A model generated the notes under the pieces. The model was not told the origin of the DNA. It saw nothing but the letters and a program-made list of their open reading frames with translations, and did no database searches. The position numbers and the translations under genes are program-made. From Kordia sp. (lineage in GTDB: Bacteria; Bacteroidota; Bacteroidia; Flavobacteriales; Flavobacteriaceae): a stretch of 40,682 bases of DNA. The stretch covers positions 1 to 40,682 of the forward strand of contig NZ_JAKVBC010000042.1 of the NCBI RefSeq assembly GCF_022447245.1, written 5' to 3'. Positions 4,743 to 39,755 of the stretch are shown here, piece after piece (the first letter of the stretch is position 1; each line of letters opens with the position of its first letter).

Positions 4743-4907
4743 ATGCAGGGTATAACCATATACAAAGGTAAAAAAGTTAGTGTTGTAAAAGCAGATGGCA
4801 AAATAGACGTATGGCACAATTGAAAAAAGCTAAAAATATCCTTGCAAGTAAAGCATGATTTATATAGATCTATGCTAGATGATATATACAAAAACAGTAG
4901 AATATAA
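4743..4907 (+). CDS. Small basic hypothetical protein
   Basis: 54 residues (M-Q-G-I-T-I-Y-K-G-K-K-V...), basic, beta-rich at the start, one TGA glycine. Last gene of the early rightward operon before the terminator at 4977. Family not recognised. Confidence 0.7.
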
Positions 4908-4976
4908 TAAGTGTTTACAATATGTTAAATTACAAAAGAAACAGTTTACAATAAGTTTTAATATGAATAGGAAAGA

Positions 4977-5007
4977 AAGCCTAGTGGTATAAAATACTAC
5001 TAGGCTT
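4977..5007. terminator. Strong bidirectional intrinsic terminator
   Basis: A 14-bp stem (AAGCCTAGTGGTAT with ATACTACTAGGCTT, one G-U pair) around an AAA loop. It is followed by CTTTTGTGTTT on the + strand and TCTTTCC on the - strand. It lies exactly between the convergent early operon (ending 4907) and late operon (ending 5053), so it serves both. Confidence 0.9.
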
Positions 5008-5052
5008 CTTTTGTGTTTATTAAACAAATATTTTCAAAGTAAATAAGCGAAA

Positions 5053-5265
5053 CTACTTGTTTTTCTTTGTTTGGTAATACTTTTTTGTCTCATATGACGC
5101 CGCTCAAAAGAATATAGTTGATAGTGATCATATAAGTATAACATCATTTTGTGTTATAGTTCATTCAGCTGCAAGATATGCAGTGACAACTCAAACAATA
5201 CTAGCAATTACTCCTTTTTTACCACTGAGGAATTTTACTAATTTTTCAGAACTTTTATCAAACAT
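5053..5265 (-). CDS. Putative holin
   Basis: 70 residues with two hydrophobic segments (about residues 18-34 and 41-56) separated by a short acidic loop, and a lysine-rich C-terminus (K-K-Y-Y-Q-T-K-K-N-K). The size, two membrane helices and charged tail are typical of small class II holins. It lies one base downstream of the amidase, the usual lysis-cassette neighbour. Three TGA glycines fall in or next to the membrane helices. It is the last gene of the leftward operon. Confidence 0.75.
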
Positions 5266-34412: not shown

Positions 34413-34413
34413 G

Positions 34414-34434
34414 CTGGCTATATGCCAGTTTTTT
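34414..34434 (+). terminator. Intrinsic terminator of the rightward cluster
   Basis: CTGGC-tatat-GCCAG followed by TTTTTT. Directly after the last rightward gene. Confidence 0.85.
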
Positions 34435-34441
34435 ATTTAAT

Positions 34442-34465
34442 AAAAAAAAGAACCTTTCGGCTCTT
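34442..34465 (-). terminator. Intrinsic terminator for leftward transcription
   Basis: On the - strand AAGAGCC-GAAA-GGTTCTT with one G-U pair, followed by eight Ts. It has a GNRA loop. It caps transcripts coming from the HNH gene or from an RNA in 34466-34685. Confidence 0.85.
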
Positions 34466-34685
34466 CACCATCACATACGTACGCTATGCTTTGGAGTTTT
34501 TCCCAGAGGCGGGAATAAACACTTTTGCTAGTTATTATCAGACGAGCGCGCCATCGATACAACACAAGTTTGTACATTAACACTTCTAGCTAACGCCTAC
34601 CATAAGTGTGCTATTGCAATAAATCACAAGGAAGCTTTATATGGTTTCATATTTACTGTAAACATTCTACTGTAAAATATCAATA
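34466..34685 (-). ncRNA. Candidate structured RNA or 3' UTR downstream of HNH gene
   Basis: 220 bases without a convincing ORF on either strand, less AT-rich than the genome. The - strand contains several short inverted repeats (ACACTT...AAGTGT about 34590-34618, TACAA...TTGTA near 34560-34580, TCCC...GGGA near 34500-34512) and ends in a clear intrinsic terminator. It could be an independent ncRNA or a structured 3' UTR. I tested it for a tRNA cloverleaf and found none. Confidence 0.4.
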
Positions 34686-35171: not shown

Positions 35172-35237
35172 CTCACTTCTATAATGTAAATATTAATATA
35201 ATATACATATGTTTCTTAGAAAATCAACCTTTAGAAC

Positions 35238-35259
35238 GGTAACTTCTTAGTTACCCTTT
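35238..35259 (+). terminator. Hairpin with T-run upstream of HNH gene
   Basis: GGTAAC-ttctta-GTTACC followed by CTTTTT on the + strand. No + strand gene ends here, so it may terminate an antisense transcript over the HNH gene or be a control element. Confidence 0.45.
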
Positions 35260-35372
35260 TTAGTACTCAAAAAAAATATACAGAAAATTTACAAACAAAT
35301 TTTTATGCCTCTTTTTGTTTTTGCTGCGTGTGTGTGTAACTAATATATATATATAAATGTTGCGAGGCGACA

Positions 35373-35391
35373 CCCCCCCCATGCCCCCTAT
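35373..35391. other. C8/C5 tract in an AT-rich genome
   Basis: Eight Cs, then atg, then five Cs. The reverse strand is G-rich. It is strikingly different in base content from its surroundings and could be an R-loop or G-rich structure-forming site near the origin; no complete four-run quadruplex is seen. Confidence 0.5.
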
Positions 35392-35519
35392 ATTTTACAT
35401 AGTATCGATGACAACTACACATTTAGTTACTATAATACCAATTATCGCAACTAAATACACAACCTAGTAATATCAACTATTAGTTCGGATTGTCAATATG
35501 TTGGACTTTATACTCTACA

Positions 35520-35607
35520 TACAGTGAAACCCTATCAAACTATAGGTAGTTCCTGTAACTTGACATTTGATAAATTACGAAATACACAGCTATCTTGTGT
35601 ATTTTTT
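35520..35607 (+). ncRNA. Candidate small RNA with terminator
   Basis: A -10-like TATACT (35509-35514) precedes nested stems TACAG...CTGTA (35520-35524/35553-35557) and CCTAT...ATAGG (35531-35535/35542-35546). These are followed by a terminator hairpin AATACACA...TGTGTATT (35581-35588/35596-35603) with a T-run. The -35 is weak. There is no ORF. It may be a replication-control RNA, given the iterons downstream. Confidence 0.45.
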
Positions 35608-35727
35608 GTATATTTTTGTAAAAAATGATCCCTTTTTAGGTTTTTTTTGTGCGTGTTTTGTAAGAAATTAAGCATTAGAATTAGTACTATAATTTGGGTG
35701 TGAAATATTGAAATAATGGTAGATAGT

Positions 35728-35818
35728 AAGAATTGAGAGTAAGAATTGAGAGTAAGAGTTGAGGGTAAGAGTTGAGACTATGAATTGAGAGTAAGAGTTG
35801 AGGGTAAGAGTTGAGAGT
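35728..35818. repeat. Seven tandem 13-bp iterons
   Basis: Seven contiguous copies of AAGARTTGAGRGT (91 bases): copies 1-2 aagaattgagagt, 3 and 6 aagagttgagggt, 4 aagagttgagact, 5 atgaattgagagt, 7 aagagttgagagt. Thirteen bases is slightly over one helical turn. Non-coding. Directly repeated short motifs in an origin-like region are typical initiator-binding iterons. Confidence 0.85.
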
Positions 35819-35999
35819 ATATATTGTGTATTATGTATTGTTGTTTTGTTTATAAATGAAGCTAAATGAGAAATCCCCCTTCTTTTCTAGATTAGATATA
35901 ACATCATAATTAAGTAAAACAGTTTTTATATATATTTCAGTATTTGGAGCTACTACGTAAGCACCAAAATACAGTTCCTAACTACAATACAAGATATAA

Positions 36000-36017
36000 T
36001 TACACTTTTTAGTGTAA
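36000..36017. repeat. Perfect hairpin TTACACT-TTTT-AGTGTAA
   Basis: A 7-bp perfect stem and four-base loop in the control region between iterons and the early operon. It may be a protein site or an RNA hairpin. Confidence 0.6.
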
Positions 36018-36062
36018 AATCTATTGATTTATTAATAAATATAAATATAACGTTGTCATCGT

Positions 36063-36125
36063 GATATTGAGATGGTAGCTATTAAGCTATAGTTGCCAGT
36101 AGAGTAACCAATGCTATCTCATATC
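36063..36125 (+). promoter_or_regulatory. Long imperfect inverted repeat before early operon
   Basis: GATATTGAGATGGTAGC (36063-36079) pairs with GCTATCTCATATC (36113-36125). An inner TAGCT...AGCTA pair and GTTGCC sit in the loop. It lies 33 bases before the AT-rich box and first gene of the early operon, so it could be a structured leader, an operator or part of the origin. Confidence 0.55.
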
Positions 36126-36157
36126 CACATCTATTTTACAATATTATATATTATATT

Positions 36158-38754: not shown

Positions 38755-38847
38755 ATGTTTCACAATTGAGTACAACAATTTGCATGTTTTGTAGCTATAA
38801 TATTGTTTATGCTTTTAGTGGCAGATATAGTTGCATTATTTATGTAA
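38755..38847 (+). CDS. Very small membrane protein
   Basis: 30 residues, hydrophobic from residue 9. Directly upstream of the structured RNA; it stops 18 bases before its predicted transcription start. Weak call. Confidence 0.4.
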
Positions 38848-38858
38848 ATTGTTATAGT
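38831..38858 (+). promoter_or_regulatory. Putative promoter of the structured RNA
   Basis: TTGCAT (38831-38836), a 16-base spacer and TATAGT (38853-38858), placing the start near 38865. The -35 lies within the last codons of the membrane microprotein. Confidence 0.6.
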
Positions 38859-38864
38859 GAGTGT

Positions 38865-38995
38865 ATCAAACACCGACCATCGTTTGAGTTTGAAAATGAG
38901 GGGCAGTCCTTATGAAAGTTATGCATTACGGTGTATAAACAAACGGTAAAAGCCTTATAGCTTCCTTGGTCGGTGTGCTATGAGGTTTTTATTTT
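38865..38995 (+). ncRNA. Structured non-coding RNA with own promoter and terminator
   Basis: A perfect 10-bp closing helix P1, ACACCGACCA (38870-38879) with TGGTCGGTGT (38967-38976). Inside it are P2 CGTTTG/CAAACG (38881-38886/38940-38945), P3 ATGAGG/CCTTAT (38896-38901/38908-38913) and P4 ATGCAT-tacg-GTGTAT (38921-38936, a UNCG-type loop). CCTTATAGC (38953-38961) also pairs with GCTATGAGG (38977-38985) and is followed by TTTTTATTTT. This is an intrinsic terminator whose loop contains the 3' strand of P1. A sigma-70-like promoter precedes it. No ORF. It may be an independent small RNA or a riboswitch-like attenuator of the replication gene that starts 10 bases after the T-run. I could not match it to a known RNA family by eye. 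Confidence 0.75.
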
Positions 38996-39005
38996 ATAGT
39001 AAAAA

Positions 39006-39755
39006 ATGAAAAAAAACTATCTTATACATGACGACAGTTTGGAAATATTTGATTGATTGTCTGATGAACAAATAGGCAAATTATTTAGAAAAATTAGAGA
39101 TTATCACAAACAAGAATGATACGATTCTCACGATCCAGTAGTTGACATTTGTTATATAACATTTAAGAATCAGTTTGATAGAGACGAGAAAAAATATAAG
39201 AAAAAGTGTCAAAAGAACCGTGAGAACGTCGATAAGAGACGGAATACGAAACAGTACGAACGCATACAATCGAATACGATTGAATACAAACGTATACAAT
39301 CGGATACGAACTATACCGATAAGGATAAGGATAGGGATAAGGATAGGGATAGGGATAGGGATAAGGATAAGGATAAGGATAATAATGTAACTATTGTGAA
39401 AGAAATAAAAGAAACCTCTGGCGAGGTGACAGATTTTATACCATCTGTAAAGAAATTTACAGCACAAGCATATAAAAACAAAAAGTCTATGAGGACTATT
39501 ATAGATAAAGTAGGAAGTGAGAAGTATATACAAGATCAATATGCTGAGTATAGGAAGCTGGAAAGAAAATGATATGACTGAAAGACTATTGATTATGTAT
39601 TGGAGTGGATAGAAAATGATAGCTTTTGGAAAAAAAACATTATGAGCATTAAGAAATTGAATAAAAAAAATAAGGACTGATTTTTGTATATTGATATGAT
39701 AATCGACAAAGCAAAAGAAGATCAAGAAAAATCATCTTTTTATATATTTGAATAA
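39006..39755 (+). CDS. Putative replisome organiser (DUF6291/DnaD-like architecture)
   Basis: 249 residues. The N-terminal 70 residues (G-L-S-D-E-Q-I-G-K-L-F-R-K-I-R-D-Y) match the domain seen at the front of many phage replication initiators: a winged-helix-like unit with L-F-x-x-I-x-x-Y. A low-complexity linker D-K-D-R-D-K-D-R-D follows, as the T-D-T-D/K-D-K-D linkers in such proteins. The C-terminal part (residues about 160-249) is helical with W-I-E-N-D-S-F-W and a short Y-I-D-M-I-I-D. It probably recruits host helicase to the phage origin. It starts just after the structured RNA. Confidence 0.7.
39322..39380 (+). repeat. Low-complexity GATAAGG/GATAGG run in the replication gene
   Basis: Tandem gat-aag and gat-agg codons encoding (D-K/R)n in the linker of the replisome organiser. 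Slippage-prone; the antisense frame gives a spurious hydrophobic ORF. Confidence 0.8.

Follow-up and report, generated by a model that had tools for sequence, protein, structure and literature searches.

A putative phage leader RNA whose 5' segment is complementary to its own terminator loop, upstream of a replication gene in a genome that reads TGA as glycine

What is the highly ordered stretch of 131 nt that lies directly in front of a replication gene in a recoded phage genome, and how would it act on that gene? The window analyzed here (the whole stretch of DNA, contig NZ_JAKVBC010000042.1 of an assembly assigned to Kordia sp., 40,682 nt) is a circular phage genome (75-bp terminal repeat) that reads TGA as glycine: 11 large ORFs contain 329 in-frame TGA codons, many of which align with glycine, or with TGA, in the terminase of a relative. 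The gene downstream of the ordered stretch had been taken for a replication gene in the initial annotation, and profile searches agree, its product matching DUF6291 (E 9e-18) as well as replisome-organizer (3e-5) and O-like (2e-3) profiles, with homologs in Riemerella phage RAP44 annotated as 'phage replication protein' or 'primosomal protein'. We found no open-access PMC paper that mentions DUF6291. Searches of IMG/VR with the DUF6291 protein alone and with the exact letters of the RNA retrieved no relatives, and blastn of the leader RNA against phage and plasmid collections returned only short, apparently chance matches; locus L003, considered as a relative, was rejected as a chance 20-nt match. 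The features of the region are listed in Table 1.

Table 1. Positions, on the window, of the leader RNA elements and of the replication gene behind them
Feature	Position	Strand	Basis
Candidate promoter TTGCAT-16-TATAGT	38831-38858	+	sequence and recurrence in relatives
Leader RNA to terminator end	38865-38995	+	folds; start inferred, 7 nt past the -10 box
5' hairpin HP1, UCAAAC[ACCGACCAUC]GUUUGA, segment a in loop	38866-38887	+	MFE of full RNA
Segment a = P1 5' strand, ACACCGACCA	38870-38879	+	exact inverted repeat
P2 5' strand, partner 38940-38947	38879-38886	+	fold cut at 38980
Hairpin P2a	38896-38913	+	fold cut at 38980
Hairpin P2b, UACG loop	38919-38938	+	fold cut at 38980
P2 3' strand	38940-38947	+	fold cut at 38980
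Terminator 5' arm; overlaps P2 end and hairpin P4 (38950-38963)	38945-38961	+	both folds
Segment a' = P1 3' strand, TGGTCGGTGT, within terminator loop	38967-38976	+	fold, repeat, descriptor
Terminator 3' arm and U-rich tract	38977-38995	+	MFE of full RNA
DUF6291 replication protein gene, TGA=Gly	39006-39755	+	profile searches and annotated homologs
10-bp-period repeats in replication gene	39242-39311	+	possible origin iterons, function inferred

The structural elements proposed in the initial annotation, namely a perfect 10-bp closing helix, four further stems including a UNCG-type tetraloop and an intrinsic terminator whose 5' arm falls within the P1 domain and whose loop takes in the P1 3' strand, were all recovered by computation. 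The closing helix P1 is an exact inverted repeat (38870-38879/38967-38976), and the RNA cut at 38980 folds into P1 plus four stems, one of them UACG-looped (-35.6 kcal/mol, z -3.55, equaled by 1 of 200 shuffles). The full 131 nt instead form the 5' hairpin, inner hairpins and the terminator (-39.4, z -3.68, equaled by 0 of 200 shuffles), in which 38945-38961 pair with 38977-38993, giving 17 bp and a 15-nt loop that holds the P1 3' strand, and the terminator ends about 11 nt before the ATG of the DUF6291 gene. The unusual degree of order was likewise substantiated: in a scan of 4058 120-nt folding windows on both strands, based on regression of MFE against GC without shuffles, 38881(+) ranked fifth (residual z -3.73), and the four better-ranked ones all fall in 4901-5080, around a convergent terminator. 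Independently of the leader, the strongest structure of that scan (4961-5020) is this terminator between converging gene blocks, apparently an ordinary one.

The combination of a terminator loop and its upstream complement sets this site apart from the rest of the window. A descriptor for a terminator loop complementary to an upstream segment (complement of at least 7 nt with 3 G/C, loop of 9-26 nt) matched here alone on both strands, a looser setting adding one weak match, and among 44 hand-listed gene starts the leader has the strongest terminator-like hairpin (38.4; the runner-up scores 29.2). The complementarity between segment a and the terminator loop gave p=0.002, the minimum obtainable from 500 shuffles, and the flanking stem of HP1 taken alone is weak and not significant, 8.5% of positions equaling it. 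The generic terminator scan, with its loop limit of 8 nt, missed the terminator. The leader element with P1, its stems and its terminator is confirmed as a sequence feature. The sigma-70-like promoter noted earlier stands less firmly: the candidate matches 8 of 12 consensus positions (counted by eye) and falls below the cut-off of the generic promoter scan, from whose list it is absent. It is believable because the same TTGCNN-16-TATANT spacing precedes 4 of 4 TGA=Gly leaders compared, the window included, a recurrence to be read as a bare count with no null computed. A generic search for -10 motifs was not above chance (12 matches vs a mean of 7.0 in shuffles). Immediately 5' of the leader RNA, at 38755-38847, there is a possible 30-residue membrane peptide.

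A scan of genome contigs for the terminase located the same phage in a second bin, JAKVCV010000028.1, titled a Saprospiraceae MAG; its presence in two separate bins could reflect misbinning or could hint at bacteria living alongside the host. Over the compared pieces the two genomes differ at 21 positions, 9 of which are concentrated at 35268-35474, where no convincing gene was seen. Two of the remaining 12 fall in the leader RNA, C38904T in the P2a loop and G38923A, by which a G-U pair of P2b becomes A-U. The fold survives both changes, and two differences are too few to argue from. Elsewhere in the window, about 1 kb without a convincing gene (35172-36157) carries seven 13-bp-spaced repeats at 35714-35826 and is possibly an origin or partition region. 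The repeat-rich gene at 20-523, near the contig junction, has many more repeat copies in the near-identical genome, a copy difference that we read as variable length of the gene or collapse of the repeat in assembly. On the minus strand, 34413-34685, downstream of an HNH gene, has no ORF of 60 aa and a terminator-like end (by eye), and may be another RNA.

Further TGA=Gly phages, whose ORFs are far more open when TGA is read through, were found by scans with the DUF6291 N-terminus and terminase profiles, and three of them share the layout of a segment a followed by its complement a' in a terminator loop. In the terminase relative L056 (a 41-kb contig), AGCCGTCA is followed, before the DUF6291 gene, by TGACGGCT, which sits in the loop of a 19-bp terminator. 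The corresponding segment pairs are AGCGACCA/TGGTCGCT in L233, on the contig of another terminase relative, L130, and CAACACCT/AGGTGTTG in L076, on the contig of L069. The letters of a and a' are unrelated among these leaders and yet match within each, therefore pairing and place are kept and letters are not; this both-sided change concerns only four phages with unrelated letters and is not a formal count. P2 occurs with other letters in L056 (by fold) and L233 (by eye), and the 5' hairpin of the L076 leader is very long and carries a in the loop (by eye). The gene downstream of the L076 leader has no match in Pfam or PHROGs, and the DUF6291 gene on the same contig (L069) is not preceded by such a leader. 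The DUF6291 starts of the TGA=Gly phages L069 and L035 lack a terminator-like hairpin. The layout is absent from the TGA=Gly pieces L017, L018, L130, L132, L173 and L234, the contig of L130 yet having it in its other piece, L233, and from the phage of L035 (pieces L077 and L078); L109 gave one weak 6-nt match. Upstream of the DUF6291 gene of a TGA=Gly phage (L035:2751-2905) we also observed tRNA-like letters, for which ARAGORN reports no tRNA.

Similar leaders are also present in phages with the standard code, as seen in the 230 nt upstream of 68 further DUF6291 genes, and one set of these shares the letters CATTCGGTCAGTA. A pattern scan for the family letters returned 48 contigs, and 50 matches, two of them from genomes, were examined; 30 have the downstream arm, 27 of these have enough upstream DNA, and 22 are distinct sequences. 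The initial annotation had named covariation in homologs as a check, and covariation is present, strongest in this standard-code family. Segments a and a' pair in all 22 distinct sequences, with both-sided changes in 4 of 6 pairs; across the whole structure 99.5% of 746 cells are paired vs 89.4% in shuffles, 13 pairs have both-sided changes vs 7.1 (0 of 500 shuffles), and the covariation score of the alignment is 0.267 vs 0.087, the number of further pair types being no higher than in shuffles (18 vs 16.3; 87 of 500). The pairing signal collapses once partners are slid, and on cells paired the structure is favored over its slid versions by having been drawn on one family sequence. The scaffold carries five different a/a' letter sets, and a' forms a bulge in this family, where a:a' need not exclude the terminator.

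The surroundings of the family leaders are equally regular. The 30 copies lie on 30 contigs, one per contig fragment; in all 30, GGTTTTT ends 5-6 nt 5' of the ATG (the ORF of L205 is cut by the contig end), and in 27 of the 27 with enough upstream DNA a TAnnTTTG box, corresponding to the -7 promoter element of Bacteroidota, is found 17-19 nt 5' of the hairpin loop, compared with 0.8% of random 22-nt stretches from five family contigs. The first genes vary (DUF6291, DNA methylase, HNH nuclease, short ORFs). According to PHROGs searches on 10 contigs, the next larger gene matches replication-type profiles in six (L184, L191, L206, L216, L227 and, weakly, L192), and in L189, L196, L200 and L204 it matches profiles that DUF6291 proteins also match. 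Searches of later genes in L184, L200, L188 and L192 gave two DnaB helicases and two proteins with a BT4734-like domain, and the second gene of L188 is an O-like replication gene. Common descent of the window leader, or of the TGA=Gly leaders generally, with the large standard-code family is unproven, because the family covariance model R1 matched neither the window nor L056 at E up to 5. The same model matches L038 at 6e-9 and, in the right place, L032 at 0.18 and L081 at 0.22, values to be read beside the 0.22-0.99 reached by wrong-strand matches of family members. Searching 395 genomes of the phylum of the window assembly for the family letters gave 2 matches, both lacking the downstream arm; the family model found none in 148 genomes of the same order, and BLAST of two standard-code leaders against named phages detected no leader. 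A different type of leader is seen in L094, L095 and L096, where aaaaaagtatatttgcaaaaacaatcaaaacaatcaatcATG precedes DUF6291 with no terminator hairpin nearby.

Two further groups of observations extend the layout. In the A6 clade, L081, L082, L083, L084, L087, L089 and L090 have GGGCAG in the 5' loop, CTGCCC in the terminator loop and GGGCAG again before the ATG, and in L092 and L093 all three segments differ together (GAGCAG, CTGCTC, GAGCAG; 2 of 9 A6 sequences); these two look like one phage, so that their linked change may be a single event. A third copy of a is also apparent, by eye, in L061 and L088. The descriptor additionally brought out L148, with GGTCGCAG in the 5' loop, its complement in the terminator loop and a NUMOD4/HNH nuclease as the first gene.

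For a statistic across DUF6291 genes, the best hairpin near the ATG was picked blind to complementarity at 69 starts, and its loop was compared with shuffled 5' sides. A terminator-like hairpin is found near 24 of the 69 starts and not near the other 45. Since the 69 include the same or near-identical contigs (e.g., L026 and L091), seven near-copies were removed, leaving 17 representatives, some from related loci, for which the loop-to-5' complementarity gives a Fisher p of 1.9e-8; the value is 8.9e-6 without the window and L056, and 2.4e-5 when the CATTCGG group is also cut to one. At the 45 loci that fail the hairpin criterion the Fisher p is 0.98. Taken one at a time, most loci with long terminator loops fall short of significance, and L088 has an automatic p of 0.99, the program picking another hairpin than the reading by eye. 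An HP1-type flanking stem is not significant for most of the 24 loci, in a test where the automatic a or stem differs from the by-eye reading in L029, L038, L085 and L104. The unfiltered descriptor is unspecific (37 matches in reversed sequence) and separates only with an adjacent ORF (53 vs 11 in one block-shuffled copy; 43 vs 2 when a also has at least 4 G/C), counts that were taken after duplicate loci had been removed, that take in most of the 30-copy family among the real matches and that, for the 4 G/C cut-off, depend on a threshold chosen post hoc.

How might such a leader work? The initial annotation had left the choice between a small RNA and a riboswitch-like attenuator; the attenuator part is now favored, and a small-molecule ligand is not supported by the data. 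In our reading, the element is probably the 5' leader of the phage replication gene, acting by transcription attenuation, an arm of the choice that is favored because the terminator adjoins the start codon in the window and its relatives. Segment a, near the 5' end of the transcript, would be held in the loop of a small hairpin, and a', located just before the 3' arm of the terminator, would pair with it on leaving the polymerase, which in the window would yield the P1/P2 helix. The terminator loop would thus be occupied by a:a' pairing while the 3' arm has yet to be made, which would favor transcription onward into the replication gene; with a unavailable, the terminator would form and an RNA of about 130 nt would be released. 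The competitor for a would most simply be an RNA that contains a', for which the terminated leader is a candidate. Three points are inferred: transcription of the leader, a:a' as its ON state, and a competitor for a.

Folding of transcripts of increasing length is consistent with this order of events. In the window, a:a' belongs to the MFE structure with 3' ends up to 38988 and has gone by 38990, a position within the U-tract; in 5 of 6 leaders (window, L056, L233, L085 and L148) the terminator replaces a:a' once the 3' end is within the U-tract or slightly beyond it. The exception is L076, whose 5' hairpin is stable enough to restrict a to loop-loop pairing, and there a:a' is absent from the nested MFE structure at all lengths folded. 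The polymerase covers the last dozen or so bases of the RNA, hence the exposed RNA at the U-tract should still hold a:a', favoring read-through. When the window RNA is read to 39000 and beyond, the MFE structure reverts to P1, and therefore the two window forms are close in energy; the computed values of -39.4 and -35.6 appear as close as a switch would need. Pairing is loop-to-bulge in the large family and loop-to-loop in L076, and in both it could coexist with the terminator and need not exclude it. The third copy of a in the A6 clade suggests that a' may also cover the start region; a:a' would then free it, a further indication that a:a' pairing is the ON state.

A special case of the attenuation leader, whose likelihood overlaps with that of the general reading and which we hold to be possible but doubtful, is an immunity RNA acting in trans in the manner of phage P4. 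The a' of the terminated leader would pair with a of new leaders, so that read-through would fall as copies rise, and in some clades it would additionally bind a second a ahead of the ATG, just as seqA and seqC are both targets of CI RNA. This idea fits the A6 clade, where a, a' and a'' stand in that order upstream of DUF6291 and change together, and seemingly (by eye) L061 and L088 as well; the five a/a' letter sets on one scaffold would fit it too, as specificity groups. According to PMC4825925, CI RNA halts P4's replication genes via upstream seqA and downstream seqC. However, in the window and L056 no a'' follows the terminator (by eye), and matching partner changes are equally expected of pairing in cis.

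It is unlikely that the element is a separate trans-acting sRNA with a promoter and terminator of its own, the replication gene being expressed leaderless from another promoter that overlaps the terminator. Such a promoter might be seen in TATAGT (38995-39000), which lies 5 nt from the ATG, and -10-like letters likewise adjoin the ATG of several other window genes (by eye); the full-length MFE structure, moreover, is the closed hairpin-plus-terminator form that a stable sRNA would have. But TATAGT lacks a -35 element at the normal distance (by eye), the 5-6 nt between GGTTTTT and the ATG of several different genes in the standard-code phages leave no room for a promoter, and each contig fragment has a single copy of the leader, for the most part upstream of genes of replication type. 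More improbable still is a riboswitch, in which a metabolite or a phage or host protein would stabilize the a:a' fold. Although the large family has a compact pseudoknotted fold with conserved unpaired stretches, including (by eye) a possible AGUA/GAA internal loop, we saw no core letters common to the TGA=Gly and standard-code leaders that could serve as a binding site, and the leaders have no Rfam match. That the exact 10-bp inverted repeat, near iteron-like repeats, is a protein or recombinase site close to an origin and acts as DNA is highly improbable, given that nested stems of the related layout change on both sides, that terminator and promoter have the positions expected for a transcript, and that one SNP converts G-U to A-U.

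The Rfam search suggested earlier indicates that the element is uncatalogued there: Rfam 15, with its riboswitch, C4 and isrK families, has no match to the window at the gathering score (the best below threshold being the trpB motif, E 1.8), only three tRNA matches in 20 loci and no C4 in the window or these loci, none to the L226 leader up to E 1, and none to L233, L076 and L148. In the titles and abstract openings of the open-access PMC literature we found no such leader class. RNA control of replication genes is itself textbook for plasmids and P4. In pT181 a 5' segment pairs with the 5' arm of the terminator, the repZ pseudoknot of ColIb-P9 is made by the loop of a 5' hairpin, and in the C4 RNA system of P1 and P7 complementary leader segments bring about premature termination before phage replication genes. 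Unlike in pT181, the 5' segment here pairs with the terminator loop and not the 5' arm. Rep attenuators of the pT181/pIP501 type, according to PMC8383071, have two exclusive folds, one with a terminator, and read-through as the default, and the present element resembles them as a replication-gene leader with exclusive folds and a terminator before the start codon, whereas there an opposite-strand antisense RNA triggers termination. The same source describes translation of IncI-alpha (ColIb-P9) repZ as dependent on a leader pseudoknot (PMC8383071); the likeness lies in pseudoknot-type pairing in the leader of an initiator or replication gene, and the difference in that repZ control concerns translation, near the RBS, whereas the leaders described here place the partner in a transcription terminator, the A6 clade, L061 and L088 being possible exceptions. 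As in the P4 system of CI RNA, seqA and seqC described in PMC4825925, complementary leader segments would control premature termination before replication genes; unlike in P4, the complement lies in the terminator itself, a processed CI-like RNA is putative, and a seqC-like second target is confined to such cases as the A6 clade. For IsrK of prophage Gifsy-1, PMC4825925 describes one promoter giving a terminated short RNA and a read-through message, the short acting on the long. IsrK differs in its effect, switching on translation and, by an indirect route, an antiterminator in place of a replication gene; its relation to the leader was compared by sequence, through Rfam only.

Taken at its widest, the reading we offer tentatively is that a widespread, uncatalogued class of phage leaders gates replication operons across very different hosts, and that each leader encodes its own regulator, the a' of the terminated leader silencing leaders with the same a. 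Under this equally tentative view, some of the phages would have Bacteroidota-type promoters and others, TGA=Gly phages included, sigma-70-type ones. If true, this would amount to sequence-specific copy control or superinfection immunity without a protein or an opposite-strand RNA. A recurring leader class heading ordinary phage replication operons is new to Rfam 15, and the proposed switch lends itself to direct experiment, one scaffold coming with five natural loop sets. Should the TGA=Gly and standard-code leaders share descent, they would tie together phages of recoded and ordinary bacteria.
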